Positions 463-31,716 of a DNA stretch of 64,000 nucleotides are shown here, one piece after another. The stretch's first letter is position 1. Each line of letters opens with the position of its first letter. The notes beneath the pieces are model-generated. The model worked only from the letters and a program-made list of their open reading frames with translations, had not been told where the DNA came from and ran no database searches. The position numbers and the translations under genes are program-made. Source of the stretch: Microbacterium sp. LWH13-1.2 (lineage in GTDB: Bacteria > Actinomycetota > Actinomycetes > Actinomycetales > Microbacteriaceae); contig NZ_CP151635.1 in NCBI RefSeq assembly GCF_038397735.1, forward strand, positions 3,162,001 through 3,226,000, read 5' to 3'.

Positions 463-1463
463 GACTGGAGCGCGTCGGCGAGGCTCTGGATCGCGTCACT
501 CATCCACTCAGAGTACGACGATCCGTCAGGAAGCAGCTCCGTGAAGGCGACGACGGGGATGCCGGCAGCTGTTGCGGCATCCTCGACGCGCTGCGTCTCG
601 GCACCACCGGTCTGCGCGTTCGTGAGCACGGCCGCCACATCTCCGCTCTCGACGACGTTGAGCGTCTCGAGCAGGGTGGCGGGGGCGACATCGCTGCCCT
701 CCTCGACCGATTCGGCGAAGCCCTCGGGCGTGACGTCGGTGAGTCCGGCGGCCTCGGCGAGGTAGCCGGGCACCGGCTCGGTGATGATCACGTTCGCGCC
801 GGCGGCATCCGCCTTGAGCGTCTCGAGGTCGGCCTCGAAGCCCTCGAGGTCTGCGACGATCTCGTCGGCGTTGGCGGTGAAGTCGGCCTTGCCGTCGGGG
901 TCGAGCTCGGCGAGCTCCTCGGCGATCGTCTCGACGACGTGGATCATCGTGTGCGGGTCGAACCAGACGTGCTCGTTGAACCCCTCGATGTGGTCGTGGC
1001 CCTCGTGTCCTTCTTCGCCCTCGGCGTGCTCTTCACCCTCGGCGTGGTCGTGCTCCTCCTCGGCCGCTCCTTCTGACTCGTCGGAGTGCCCCTCGTTGCC
1101 GGGGAAGTCATGCGAGAACTCGACCGCGGTGATCACGTGCGGGTCGCTGGCATCCTGCAGCAGCGTGTCGATGAACGCGTCGTAGCCGCCGCCGTTCTCG
1201 ATCACGAGGTCGGCCTTCTGCACGGCGAGGCGATCGCGTGCCGAGGCTTCGTACGAGTGAGGGTCCTGGGTCGCCGAGGTGATGATGGAGGTCACGTCGA
1301 CGCGGTCGCCGCCGATCTGGGCCGCGAGCGAGCCGTAGACGTTGGTGCTCGCGACGACCGTCACCGCATCGCCGTCGCCGCCCGCTGCGGGAGCGGCGGA
1401 GCATCCGGCCAGCGAGAGCGCGGCGACGGATGCGAGGGCGAGGGCGACGAGCGGCTTCTTCAT
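459..1463 (-). CDS. Metal (zinc-type) ABC transporter substrate-binding lipoprotein
   Basis: A 334-residue ZnuA/TroA-family (cluster 9) solute-binding protein. The N-terminus is a lipoprotein signal with lipobox SLAGC, so Cys21 would be lipidated and the protein held on the outer face of the membrane. Candidate metal ligands are His69 (in QDPHSYE) and the histidines in the NEHVWFDPH segment. Between them, about residues 117-158, lies an acidic His-rich loop with repeated EEH, HDH and GHEGH, typical of zinc-specific members. The gene is first in its operon and overlaps the ATPase gene by 4 bases. A TAATG-N5-CATTA palindrome lies 18 bases upstream of the start, which suggests Zur repression when zinc is plentiful. 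Confidence 0.93.
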   Translation of the reverse strand: MKKPLVALALASVAALSLAGCSAAPAAGGDGDAVTVVASTNVYGSLAAQIGGDRVDVTSIITSATQDPHSYEASARDRLAVQKADLVIENGGGYDAFIDTLLQDASDPHVITAVEFSHDFPGNEGHSDESEGAAEEEHDHAEGEEHAEGEEGHEGHDHIEGFNEHVWFDPHTMIHVVETIAEELAELDPDGKADFTANADEIVADLEGFEADLETLKADAAGANVIITEPVPGYLAEAAGLTDVTPEGFAESVEEGSDVAPATLLETLNVVESGDVAAVLTNAQTGGAETQRVEDAATAAGIPVVAFTELLPDGSSYSEWMSDAIQSLADALQS

Positions 1464-1480
1464 GAGGCCACTCTACGCGC

Positions 1481-1495
1481 TAATGAGAACCATTA
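1481..1495. promoter_or_regulatory. Zur-like operator upstream of the zinc uptake operon
   Basis: Perfect inverted repeat TAATG-N5-CATTA. Read on the coding strand it lies inside GATAATGGTTCTCATTAG, which resembles the known Zur/Fur-superfamily box built from ATAATG and CATTA halves. It lies 18 bases before the lipoprotein start, where repressor binding would block transcription. The regulator gene itself is not in the window. Confidence 0.7.
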
Positions 1496-1541
1496 TCAAA
1501 TCAGCATGAGGTGACCCGTTCTGTCACGCCGCGCTCGCTCG

Positions 1542-1581
1542 CTCGCTCGACGAACGGGAGACCACCCGGTCGTCGAGCGAG
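1542..1581. terminator. Hairpin terminator after the glucosidase operon
   Basis: Arms of 17 bases (1542-1558 and 1565-1581) pair at 16 of 17 positions around a 6-base loop. The hairpin is 25 bases past the glucosidase stop codon and separates the GH13 operon from the zinc operon on the same strand. There is no T-run, as is common for high-GC actinobacterial terminators. Confidence 0.7.
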
Positions 1582-1606
1582 GAGCGCAGCGGCGAGACGA
1601 AACGCG

Positions 1607-3286
1607 TCAGCCGATCAGACCTGGCGCGATCCACACCGTCGAGTCAGCCGGAACGGCACCGTCTGCGACAGCGCCGAGCACGACATCCGCGGCGTCCGCC
1701 CCGAGATCGAACGGCTCGGTGCCGAAGTTCGTCACGATCTGCCAGCCGTTCGGGCGCGCGAAGCGCAGCACGTCGGCGCGACCCGTCTCGATCCACTCGA
1801 GGCGCTCCTCGGTCTGCAATTCGCGACGCAGGCGCAACGCCTCGCGGTAGAGCGACAGCGTCGACGACGGGTCGGCCTCCTCGACATCCACCGCGTATTC
1901 GGCGAACCATTCGGGTTGCGGCAGATGCGCGTCGCCGGCGCCGAAACCGAAGGACTCACCGGATGAGGTCCACGGCAGCGGCACGCGGCATCCGTCGCGA
2001 CCGAGGCCGTCGAACACCGCGCCGCGGAAGAACGCAGGATCCTGGCGCTGGTCGGGGCCGATCTCGGCGACCTCCTGCAGTCCGAGCTCCTCGCCCTGGT
2101 AGAGGTAGGTGCTTCCCGGCAGCCCGAGCAGCAGCAGCGTCGCGGCGTGCGCCCGACGCAGCCCCGCCTCGCGATCGAGCTGCTCGGCGGGACCGCCGGC
2201 GGCGACCCACTCGACGCCCTGCTTGACGCCCGTGCGCCCGGCCATCGGGGTGAGACCGTAGCGCGTCGCGTGGCGCGTCACGTCGTGGTTCGACAGCACC
2301 CACGTCGTCGACGAGCCGGTCGCATCGGACTGCGCGAGGTTGTCGGCGATGATCGTGCGGAACTGCGTCGCGTCGAAGTCGGCGACGAGCAGGTCGAAGT
2401 TGAACGCCTGCCCGAGACCCTCGGCCGAGGCGTACTTGGCGCGACGCTCGGGAGTGCTGACCCACGCCTCGGCGACGGCCGTGCGGGGCGGGTCGTACTC
2501 GTTGAAGACCCGACGCCACTCGGCATAGACCTCGTGCACATCGTCGCGGTCGTGCAGCGGGTGGTTGCCGTCGTGCGGCAGCAGCTCGAGTTCGGCGGTG
2601 CTGGGCAGCGGCTCGCTGAGGTCCTTGGTGAGCATGTGCGCCACGTCGATGCGGAAGCCGTCGACCCCCCGGTCAGACCAGAAGCGCAGTGTCTTCAGGA
2701 AGTCCTCTCGCACCTCGGGGTGATCCCAGTTGAGGTCGGGCTGCTCGGGGGCGAAGCTGTGCAGGAACCACTGACCGTCCTCGACCCGCTCCCACGCCGA
2801 ACCGCCGAACGCGGCGGTCCAGTCGGTCGGCGGCTCCGACCCGTCGGGCCCGGAACCCTCGCGGAAGATGTACCGCTCACGGGCAGCCGAGCCGCGGCCT
2901 GCGGCGAGCGCCTCCTGGAACCATTCGTGCAGATCCGACGAGTGGTTCGGCACGATGTCGACCACCACCCGGATGCCGCGGTCGTGCAGCGCTGCGACCA
3001 TGTCGTCGAAGTCGTCGAGCGTTCCCAGCCGCGGATCGACGTTGCGGTAGTCGGCGACGTCGTACCCTCCGTCGGCGAGCGCCGACGGGTAGAACGGGCT
3101 CAGCCACACCGCGTCGATGCCGAGCTGCTGCAGGTAGTCGGCACGCGAGACGATGCCCGGGATATCGCCGAGTCCGTCGCCGTTCGCGTCCGCGAAGCTG
3201 CGGGGGTAGATCTGATACACGGCGGCCTGTCGCCACCATGCTGCCGTCGTGTCGTCGCGGGTCTCGGTGAGAAGCGCATCGGTCAT
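1607..3286 (-). CDS. GH13 alpha-glucosidase (oligo-1,6-/alpha-glucosidase type)
   Basis: A 559-residue cytoplasmic glycoside hydrolase of family 13 that would release glucose from alpha-glucosides brought in by the neighbouring ABC transporter. The conserved regions are visible: region I DIVPNHSS (110-117), region II GFRIDVAH with the nucleophile Asp214, region III AVAEAW with acid/base Glu273, and region IV SNHD with Asp335. The N-terminal YQIYPRSFADANGDGLGDI motif fits the oligo-1,6-glucosidase/alpha-glucosidase subfamily, and there is no signal peptide. It is the last gene of the operon, 49 bases after the second permease, with AAGGAG upstream of the ATG. Exact linkage preference (maltose, isomaltose, trehalose or sucrose) cannot be read from the sequence. 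Confidence 0.93.
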   Translation of the reverse strand: MTDALLTETRDDTTAAWWRQAAVYQIYPRSFADANGDGLGDIPGIVSRADYLQQLGIDAVWLSPFYPSALADGGYDVADYRNVDPRLGTLDDFDDMVAALHDRGIRVVVDIVPNHSSDLHEWFQEALAAGRGSAARERYIFREGSGPDGSEPPTDWTAAFGGSAWERVEDGQWFLHSFAPEQPDLNWDHPEVREDFLKTLRFWSDRGVDGFRIDVAHMLTKDLSEPLPSTAELELLPHDGNHPLHDRDDVHEVYAEWRRVFNEYDPPRTAVAEAWVSTPERRAKYASAEGLGQAFNFDLLVADFDATQFRTIIADNLAQSDATGSSTTWVLSNHDVTRHATRYGLTPMAGRTGVKQGVEWVAAGGPAEQLDREAGLRRAHAATLLLLGLPGSTYLYQGEELGLQEVAEIGPDQRQDPAFFRGAVFDGLGRDGCRVPLPWTSSGESFGFGAGDAHLPQPEWFAEYAVDVEEADPSSTLSLYREALRLRRELQTEERLEWIETGRADVLRFARPNGWQIVTNFGTEPFDLGADAADVVLGAVADGAVPADSTVWIAPGLIG

Positions 3287-29947: not shown

Positions 29948-30304
29948 ATGGCCGACCTCGTCCCGTTCTCCCGTGCTCCTCGTCCTGATCGTCCGCGGCC
30001 GTTCGAACCGGAACCGCTGTGGCGCCACATGCTGGGCGATCAGCTGCGGCGCCGACGACATGCCCGCGACGAGACGCTGACCGAGACCGCCGAGAACGCC
30101 GGAGTCTCACCGCAGTACCTCTCGGAGGTCGAGCGAGGACTCAAGGAGCCGTCGAGCGAGATGATCGCCGCGATCGCCGGAGCCCTCGACACCTCGCTCG
30201 TCGAGCTGACGAGCACCGTGGCCGACGACCTGCGTCAGGCCGCGGCGGCCCCGGCATCCGCTGCAGTGTCGGCGTGGCGCGGGGCCTTCGCCCTCGCCGC
30301 CTGA
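29948..30304 (+). CDS. XRE-family regulator, ClgR-like
   Basis: A 118-residue protein with a single HTH (LGDQLRRRRHARDETLTETA, SPQYLSEVERGLKEPSSEM). That pattern is the same as in ClgR, the actinobacterial activator of clp protease genes, though the C-terminal tail is short and alanine-rich. It faces the two-gene clpP operon 137 bases away. The palindrome before it and the tandem copies before clpP imply that it regulates both itself and the operon. ClgR in other actinobacteria is itself a Clp substrate, which could give feedback; that is inference here. Confidence 0.8.
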   Translation: MADLVPFSRAPRPDRPRPFEPEPLWRHMLGDQLRRRRHARDETLTETAENAGVSPQYLSEVERGLKEPSSEMIAAIAGALDTSLVELTSTVADDLRQAAAAPASAAVSAWRGAFALAA

Positions 30305-30441: not shown

Positions 30442-31035
30442 TCAGACCGCCCGCTCCCCCCGGACGGTGTCGATCAGCCCGTAGTCCAGTGCAGCGGATG
30501 CCGTGAAGACGCGATCCCGATCGGTGTCGGTGCGCAGCTCGGCCAGGGTGCGCCCACTGTGCCTGGCGAGGATCGACTCCATGTCCGCCCGCACGCGCAC
30601 GACCTCATCGGCCGCGAGGATGAGGTCGGGGATCGCCCCGCGAGACTGTCCGGCGGGCTGATGCAGCACGATGCGGGCGTGGGCGAGCGCGGCACGCCGG
30701 CCCGGGGCTCCGGCGGCGACGAGCAGCGCGGCGGGCCCGATCGCCTGCCCGACGCAGGTCGTCGCGACCGCGGGACGGATGTGCTGCATCGTGTCGTAGA
30801 TCGCGAGCGCCGCCCCCGGATCGCCGCCTTCGCTGTTGATGTAGAACTGGATGCCGGAATCCTGACTGTCGGCATCCAGATGCAGCAGCTGGGCGATGAG
30901 CGCATTCGCGACACCCGCGTCGATGCCGGTGCCGAGATAGATGACCCGCTCCGCGAGCAGGTGCGAGTAGACGTCCATCACGCGTTCGCCCCGCGGATGC
31001 TGCGCGATGACGTTCGGGATCGTGTAGCCGCTCAT
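30442..31035 (-). CDS. ClpP-like subunit with catalytic serine replaced (pseudo-protease)
   Basis: A 197-residue ClpP family protein of typical length. Where active ClpP has GQAASM, this protein has GQAIGP, so the nucleophilic Ser is Gly. The other catalytic residues are kept: His in VLHQP and Asp in DTDRDRV. It should fold and assemble but not cleave. Its ATG overlaps the stop of the upstream active clpP paralogue by 4 bases, so the two subunits are made together and probably form a mixed ring, as in the ClpP/ClpR complexes of cyanobacteria. The palindromes upstream of the operon tie it to the ClgR-like regulator. Confidence 0.85.
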   Translation of the reverse strand: MSGYTIPNVIAQHPRGERVMDVYSHLLAERVIYLGTGIDAGVANALIAQLLHLDADSQDSGIQFYINSEGGDPGAALAIYDTMQHIRPAVATTCVGQAIGPAALLVAAGAPGRRAALAHARIVLHQPAGQSRGAIPDLILAADEVVRVRADMESILARHSGRTLAELRTDTDRDRVFTASAALDYGLIDTVRGERAV

Positions 31036-31646
31036 GCGCTCGCCCCCAGTCCGACGCGGGCTCGTCGACGCGGCATGAGATCCGCGAGGGAGGCGACGAT
31101 CTCGTCGATGAACCCGTAGTCCTTCGCCTGCTCGGCGGTGTACCAGCGGTCGTGCAACGAATCCTCGAAGACGCGCTCCACGGGCTGCCCCGTATCGACG
31201 GCGATCAGCCCGAGCACGGTGTCGCGCATGTGCCGCAGATCATCGGCCTGCGTTTCGATCTCGCCCGCCGATCCGCCGATGCCCGCAGACCCCTGATGCA
31301 TCAGGATGCGCGCATGCGGCAGCGCCCTGCGCTTGCCGTTCGCTCCGGCAGACAGCAGGAACTGCCCGGCGCTGCAGGCGAGCCCGAGCGCGAGGGTGGA
31401 CACGTCGTTCGGCACCAGGGTCATGAGGTCGCGGATCGCGAGCATCGACGGCACGGAGCCGCCGGGCGAGTGGATCCAGAGGGCGATATCGGTCGTCGGA
31501 TCCTCGGCCGAGAGGGTGAGCAGCTGCGTCATGAGCAGCGTGCCGTTGTCGTCGTCGAGGGCGCCGTCGAGCACGAGCACGCGCTCGTGGAACAGGGCCC
31601 GTCTGGCCTCGGGGCCGAACTGCGGGATGGGGGTCTCTTCGCTCAT
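31032..31646 (-). CDS. clpP: ATP-dependent Clp protease proteolytic subunit (active type)
   Basis: A 204-residue ClpP with an apparently intact triad: Ser in GLACSAGQF, His in ILMHQGS and Asp in the FEDSLHDRW segment that aligns with DTERDRF. It would form the barrel-shaped peptidase fed by a Clp ATPase (ClpX or ClpC, not in the window). The family motif GGSVPSMLAIRDLM is present. The ATG at 31646 is used; GTG at 31664 is also possible. It is the first gene of the pair. As clpX is not adjacent, this looks like an accessory clpP pair rather than the essential clpP1P2 set. Confidence 0.85.
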   Translation of the reverse strand: MSEETPIPQFGPEARRALFHERVLVLDGALDDDNGTLLMTQLLTLSAEDPTTDIALWIHSPGGSVPSMLAIRDLMTLVPNDVSTLALGLACSAGQFLLSAGANGKRRALPHARILMHQGSAGIGGSAGEIETQADDLRHMRDTVLGLIAVDTGQPVERVFEDSLHDRWYTAEQAKDYGFIDEIVASLADLMPRRRARVGLGASA

Positions 31647-31686
31647 GGCCTCAGCATCCGCCACCGGGACCGTGCGCGGGGCGGTA

Positions 31687-31716
31687 TCCGCTCGAGGCAG
31701 ATCCGCCTGAGGCAGA
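31687..31716. promoter_or_regulatory. Tandem ClgR-like sites upstream of the clpP operon
   Basis: Two abutting 15-base sites, TCCGC-TCGAG-GCAGA (31687-31701) and TCCGC-CTGAG-GCAGA (31702-31716), each matching the XRE-gene palindrome core TCTGC-N5-GCAGA at 9 of 10 arm positions. They lie about 40-70 bases before the clpP start, where an activator would bind. Confidence 0.6.

Follow-up and report, generated by a model that had tools for sequence, protein, structure and literature searches.

Our analysis showed that a stretch of 64,000 nucleotides from the genome of Microbacterium sp. LWH13-1.2, called the window below, carries two overlapping clpP genes on its minus strand, with a ClpP1-type gene upstream and a ClpP2-type gene downstream. 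The upstream gene (31032..31646, minus strand) encodes a ClpP3-like subunit of 204 aa when counted from its ATG, the open frame extending to a GTG at 31664, and the downstream gene (30442..31035, minus strand) encodes a ClpP4-like subunit of 197 aa. Both proteins match the profile of the ClpP family (peptidase S14, PF00574), with 179 bits for ClpP3 and 201 bits for ClpP4, and the two genes share the four bases of an ATGA (31032..31035, minus strand), the overlap that an earlier note on this DNA had described. The genome is complete (3,771,418 bases in one contig) and contains two further ClpP genes, the adjacent housekeeping clpP1P2 pair at 1775011-1776230. The pair in the window is thus an accessory one, and the presumption of the earlier note that clpP1P2 lies elsewhere was right. 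The open reading frame list for 26-36 kb gave no dedicated unfoldase adjoining the pair; three ClpB_D2-small proteins are encoded at other places in the genome.

The downstream subunit has lost its catalytic nucleophile. In four alignments with solved ClpPs its motif reads GQAIGP where these proteins have GMAASM, GQAASM or GQACSM, so that the nucleophile position is occupied by Gly100 (codon GGG, 30736..30738, minus strand), and the remaining two members of the triad are kept as His125 (CAT, 30661..30663, minus strand) and Asp174 (GAT, 30514..30516, minus strand). The upstream subunit retains a complete triad (Ser92-His117-Asp166), which is invariant across 18 alignment rows. On all of these residues the alignments, and for ClpP4 also the codons, agree with what had been read from the letters alone, including the replacement of GQAASM by GQAIGP. 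The earlier note had further proposed a survey of relatives for the same Ser-to-Gly change, and had taken orthologues with Ser as a possible sign of sequencing error. Among the best 120 of 4419 proteins found, the nucleophile column holds Gly in 107, Ala in 11 and Ser in 2; Gly is thus common to the genomes of independent relatives and a sequencing error at Gly100 can be rejected. Orthologues with Ser do exist, as intact lineages elsewhere in the family and as four tips nested among Ser-less relatives, but they give no hint of such an error. The fold of the downstream ClpP4 is intact as modelled, because AlphaFold2 modelled the protein with confidence (mean pLDDT 89.5) and Foldseek listed ClpPs as its top 50 PDB matches, mostly with a TM-score of 0.9 or more; this model covers ClpP4 only, ClpP3 being judged by its sequence.

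Comparable loci were drawn from four sources: the 80 named loci that ranked best among 552 confirmed ones, 30 loci out of 198 Microbacterium genomes, 99 of which have a ClpP4 match at E 1e-50, a class-wide sample of 394 genomes in which 30 loci and 100 further places were read, and 7 plasmid-collection records. They form a non-random sample, the first two sources being biased towards near relatives of the window. Once identical copies had been removed, 203 pairs had a convergent HTH gene and 32 did not, and 4 loci had one ClpP only. An HTH relative ending in two alanines adjoins 192 of these 203 pairs, which we refer to as HTH(-AA) pairs.

The window has such a regulator. A convergent gene on the plus strand (29948..30304) encodes an XRE/HTH protein of 118 aa (PF13560/PF01381) that resembles PopR and ClgR and has the C-terminus -ALAA; two C-terminal alanines are very likely the main degradation site, according to PMC9775585 (partial text). 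It scores 68 bits against the NF041677 ClgR model, below the cut-off of 170, and the other ClgR match in the genome (1125846-1126079) is stronger, with 100 bits, also below the cut-off, and has no Ala-Ala end. The window HTH reaches 59 bits against a PopR-like protein of S. fungicidicus and 56 bits against the genome's own ClgR-like protein, and its likeness to PopR amounts to 59% identity over 49 aa. For clpP3 of S. lividans a PopR box has been published (PMC9775585, partial text), and we scored candidate sites against its 24 specified bases. Upstream of the pair lies a match to 21 of the 24, TCTGCCTCAGGCGGATCTGCCTCGAGCGGA (31687..31716, minus strand), whose 5' end lies 70 bp ahead of the clpP3 start. 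When up to 3 mismatches are allowed, the window's own version of the box occurs once in the genome, and the control reading gave no site. The S. fungicidicus box scores 24/24, and shuffled sequences scanned on both strands gave 12-18, mostly 13-15. Of the 189 HTH(-AA) pairs whose upstream sequence was long enough, 144 have a box of at least 17/24 on the strand of the gene, against 2 of 80 housekeeping promoters, and in the other 45 no site reaches 17; the distance between the box and the aligned ClpP3 start has a median of 71 bp (quartiles 70 and 108). By sequence, the window regulator is PopR/ClgR-like and a putative activator of the pair, and the gene order, the adjoining HTH protein with its Ala-Ala end and the PopR box together reproduce the layout of an accessory ClpP3-ClpP4-PopR module. 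In S. lividans, ClpP3P4 is expressed only when ClpP1P2 is absent (PMC9765437, partial text).

The two subunits also belong to different types. ClpP3 is ClpP1-like, M. tuberculosis ClpP1 being among its best PDB relatives, and lacks the N-loop. When 82 accessory and 79 housekeeping pairs were aligned with E. coli ClpP, the N-terminal region residues Pro18, Val20, Asp32 and Ser35 (E. coli numbering) were present in all 82 ClpP4 rows and the docking-pocket residue Tyr76 in 81 of them. An N-loop-like pattern was seen in 75/82 ClpP4 proteins, compared with 1/82 ClpP3 and 1/79 ClpP1 frames, a contrast that rests on ClpP3 and ClpP1 frames re-read up to 60 codons further upstream, the N-terminal gaps of these rows in the alignment being partly set by the way the sequences were cut; housekeeping ClpP2 was left out of this count, its rows beginning far upstream of the gene. 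The window ClpP4 has Gln for Tyr74 and His for Phe96, so that two of the three E. coli aromatic pocket positions differ, and the pocket residues of ClpP3 are changed as well in the alignment. Judged from these patterns, the dead ClpP4 keeps the N-loop used for ATPase docking. The same N-loop split between ClpP1 and ClpP2 has been described in M. tuberculosis, where both ATPases need the ClpP2 face (PMC4416901, partial text).

The loss of the triad in ClpP4 is widespread, and a one-off feature of Microbacterium can be rejected from the class-wide sample. ClpP3 has Ser-His-Asp in 191 of the 192 HTH(-AA) pairs, the remaining one (L059) being cut by a contig end, compared with 37 of the 192 for ClpP4. 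Ser is lost in 131 of the ClpP4 proteins, alone in 112 and together with Asp in 15 or with His in 4; the others have lost His (16), Asp (7) or both (1). The lesions differ by lineage, with Gly, Ala, Trp, Glu, Phe or Asp in place of Ser, Asn, His, Thr, Ser, Glu or Gln in place of Asp, and Gly in place of His in Streptomyces. The best 120 listed proteins nearest to S. fungicidicus ClpP4 comprise 118 with Ser-Gly-Asp, one with Ser-Ala-Asp and one with Ser-His-Asp, which its motif identifies as the fused frame P0121 of 331 residues. By analogy with Listeria ClpP1, which has Asn at the Asp position and an active triad when complexed with ClpP2 (PMC9765437, partial text), the 7/192 ClpP4 proteins with a change of Asp alone may not be dead. 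Four loci (L154, L155, L156 and L157) have Trp at the nucleophile position (GQAAWT), a bulky residue that may fill the active site, and three of them also have Thr at the Asp position.

The class-wide sample contains an HTH(-AA) pair in 93 genomes, in 60 of which ClpP4 is not Ser-His-Asp. This holds for all of these genomes in the family of the window (f1, 7/7) and in two others (f27, 15/15; f26, 16/16), for 7/11 in f34, for 6/12 in eight other families together and for 9/32 in f24. The idea that all orthologues are dead was likewise rejected, the large family group f24 being mostly intact (23/32). Because 37/192 ClpP4 proteins are intact, the module does not depend on the death of this subunit for its function. 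Among the 32 pairs without the HTH gene, the upstream gene is intact in all 32 and the downstream gene in 20, the other 12 being Ser-less. One plasmid, from Microbacterium sp. NIBRBAC000506063, carries an intact-triad clpP pair (L121, 2885-4103) directly behind an annotated trigger factor gene (tig); no convergent HTH was found at this pair. Two loci, L241 (2902-3684, genome G506) and L242 (3007-3789, genome G490), have a lone ClpP2-type gene with Ser-Asp-Asp, His being replaced by Asp, and no partner ClpP in the stretch read.

As a control, the housekeeping pair was read in 80 genomes that also have an accessory pair, and 79 were scored, L310 being dropped for masked bases. ClpP1 is intact in 79/79 and ClpP2 in 77/79, whereas ClpP4 is not Ser-His-Asp in 51/79 (52/80 with G341, which was left out of the ClpP4 count because its HTH protein has no Ala-Ala end and whose ClpP4 is Ser-Asp-Asp). 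Fisher's test of ClpP4 against housekeeping ClpP2 gives p about 3e-18, a value overstated by the non-independence of related genomes. The two broken housekeeping-type ClpP2 proteins are Thr-Gln-Glu (L319, genome G317, 922-1704, minus strand) and Trp-His-Asp (L316, genome G481, 2057-2707, plus strand). The accessory ClpP4 of these genomes reads Ser-His-Asp (L160) or Ser-His-Ser (L210), and a shift of roles is possible there. One guess is that occasional use of the backup core, and the lower demand on it, may explain why ClpP4 loses its triad and ClpP2 seldom does.

A tree of 130 representatives, built with the triad columns removed and with 20 housekeeping controls but no ClpR sequences, set 105 downstream ClpPs apart from the controls with a support of about 98. 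The 11 that branch first among these 105 are all intact, none of them with an Ala-Ala HTH protein, and the state at the base of the accessory clade is intact. At least 11 changes between intact and not intact are needed over the whole tree and 9 within the clade of 105, where a count with irreversible loss gives 25 losses; changes of triad letter number 33 over the whole tree. The tree mixes families, which makes it likely that the module has passed from one taxon to another. The Ala/Gly clade that includes the window contains the four nested Ser tips (L060, L048, L070 and L069). Reading them as one retained lineage was rejected, since on the careful tree they need 3 changes, at least 2 of them by starred branches. 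Every Ser at the nucleophile position in the downstream genes is encoded by TCN; in the four tips the codons are TCC or TCG, one base from the GCN of their Ala relatives, and the GGN of the window group lies two bases from TCN, as if reached by way of Ala. Ser may have been regained in the nested tips, and regain and repeated loss both fit. It is conceivable, though we advance it tentatively, that the active site of the docking ring died many separate times through different residues, that of the cutting ring never doing so in the pairs read, and that Ser was perhaps regained by a single base change (GCN to TCN) within Ser-less clades (Nocardia jejuensis, Janibacter/Aeromicrobium and Microbacterium halotolerans). 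On this reading, the accessory Clp cores of actinobacteria would amount to an experiment in ring specialisation that nature has replicated.

In 30 of the 45 Microbacterium pairs with GQAIGP, with 435 comparisons for each subunit, dN/dS has a median of 0.085 in ClpP4 and 0.139 in ClpP3; ClpP4 is under purifying selection and is conserved no less strictly than the live ClpP3. This low ratio, and the presence of Gly in independent genomes, refute for the window a decaying pseudogene or a sequencing error, which would have nothing but the lost residue in its favour and to which we assign next to no probability; one internal TGA occurs in the frames of 4 of the 99 Microbacterium ClpP4 matches. ClpP4 might alternatively still be a peptidase through another residue or an atypical triad, as the retention of His and Asp in most Ser-less copies could suggest. 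We consider this very unlikely, since the residue at the position varies by lineage, Streptomyces lost His instead, and inspection of the ClpP4 proteins, which was not systematic, revealed no common substitute nucleophile.

Two further explanations assign the pair a different task. ClpP4 could have a dominant-negative or regulatory function, joining the housekeeping ClpP1P2 core and poisoning it in the way that ClpP-ADEP of Streptomyces hawaiiensis poisons ClpP1, and there is precedent for an extra ClpP binding another ClpP and blocking its assembly (PMC12607617, partial text). However, ClpP4 has a catalytic partner of its own, the aligned ClpP4 start reading ATGA or GTGA in most cases (161/192 pairs), and if the Streptomyces model applies, the operon would be activated by the regulator only after failure of ClpP1P2, so that poisoning appears unlikely. 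The changes could also have arisen as a side effect if the pair as a whole had taken on a new, non-proteolytic role, consistent with the divergence of both subunits and the altered pocket of ClpP3, but the triad of ClpP3 is complete in all 191 readable HTH(-AA) pairs and we give this reading a very small probability.

The pair in the window is, in our view, quite probably a backup asymmetric Clp barrel like ClpP3P4 of Streptomyces, with a ClpP3 ring that cuts, a ClpP4 ring that docks and a PopR-like switch. ClpP3 would form the catalytic ring, and the ClpP4 ring, devoid of proteolytic activity, would keep the axial N-loop and the features for ATPase docking, so that ClpX or ClpC could dock on the dead ring and feed substrates across to the ClpP3 active sites. 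Docking on ClpP4 is proposed by analogy with ClpP2: in the Streptomyces ClpP1P2 complex the ATPases dock on ClpP2 only, and ClpP2 Ser131Ala works at full rate while ClpP1 Ser113Ala fails (PMC9765437, partial text). If ClpP3P4 inherits this split, one ring cutting and the other docking, the triad of the docking ring would be dispensable and free to decay, hence its repeated loss by different routes, the absence of losses in ClpP3 and the retention of the N-loop. That related bacteria lost the same site in different ways suggests that the ClpP4 half serves docking and not cutting. The activator ending in -LAA would act at the box (31687-31716) to induce the operon; a working ClpP1P2 would degrade this activator, and the backup core would appear once ClpP1P2 fails. 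The backup Clp core of this Microbacterium genome is probably stress-switched. A mixed active/inactive barrel, as the earlier note had supposed, is accordingly the best reading of the pair, which belongs to a class-wide module and is no isolated oddity of one actinobacterium.

The closest known system is ClpP3-ClpP4/PopR of Streptomyces, which shares with the window the gene order, the convergent HTH gene with an Ala-Ala end, a PopR box (21/24 in the window) and the accessory status beside ClpP1P2. The Streptomyces ClpP4 kept Ser and lost His (118 of the best 120 listed), whereas the window ClpP4 kept His and lost Ser. In the literature covered, the function of accessory ClpP3P4 has been studied in Streptomyces only, and the Microbacterium pair is known from sequence. 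The actinobacterial ClpP1P2 of M. tuberculosis and Streptomyces is likewise a two-gene operon with a ClpP1-type subunit without the N-loop and a ClpP2-type subunit with it (PMC4416901, partial text), but the triad of housekeeping ClpP2 is kept in nearly all control genomes (77/79), although the Streptomyces complex can do without the ClpP2 Ser (PMC9765437, partial text). ClpP/ClpR of cyanobacteria, plastids and apicoplasts, to which the earlier note had compared the pair, combines catalytic and non-catalytic ClpP relatives in each core (PMC7966870, partial text), as the putative barrel of the window would. The comparison is apt as an analogy, the window ClpP4 lacking the nucleophile and putatively assembling with ClpP3, but it missed the context of the clpP3-clpP4 layout, the PopR-like regulator and the PopR box, and the loss here affects only the ClpP2-type member of an accessory pair in actinobacteria, through many different lesions. 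ClpP1P2 of Listeria also has one subunit with an altered triad (PMC9765437, partial text), but there an Asp-to-Asn change turns active in the mixed complex, and in the window the nucleophile itself is lost. Streptomyces clpP3P4-PopR and ClpP/ClpR were thus already known. The loss of triad residues from ClpP4 and its recurrence are not stated in the open-licence PMC literature covered, subscription papers lying outside it, and may already have been published or noted in a database.

A single mutant result in Streptomyces, the dispensability of the ClpP2 Ser, is here turned into a testable evolutionary rule, namely that, wherever docking and cutting fall to different rings, the triad of the docking ring is lost repeatedly. 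The backup Clp core lets Streptomyces survive the loss of ClpP1P2 and is insensitive to ADEP (PMC12607617, partial text). Our results suggest that a backup core with a dead ClpP4 has at most seven active sites. If so, active-site inhibitors and ADEP-like compounds would face a target different from ClpP1P2 in these bacteria.
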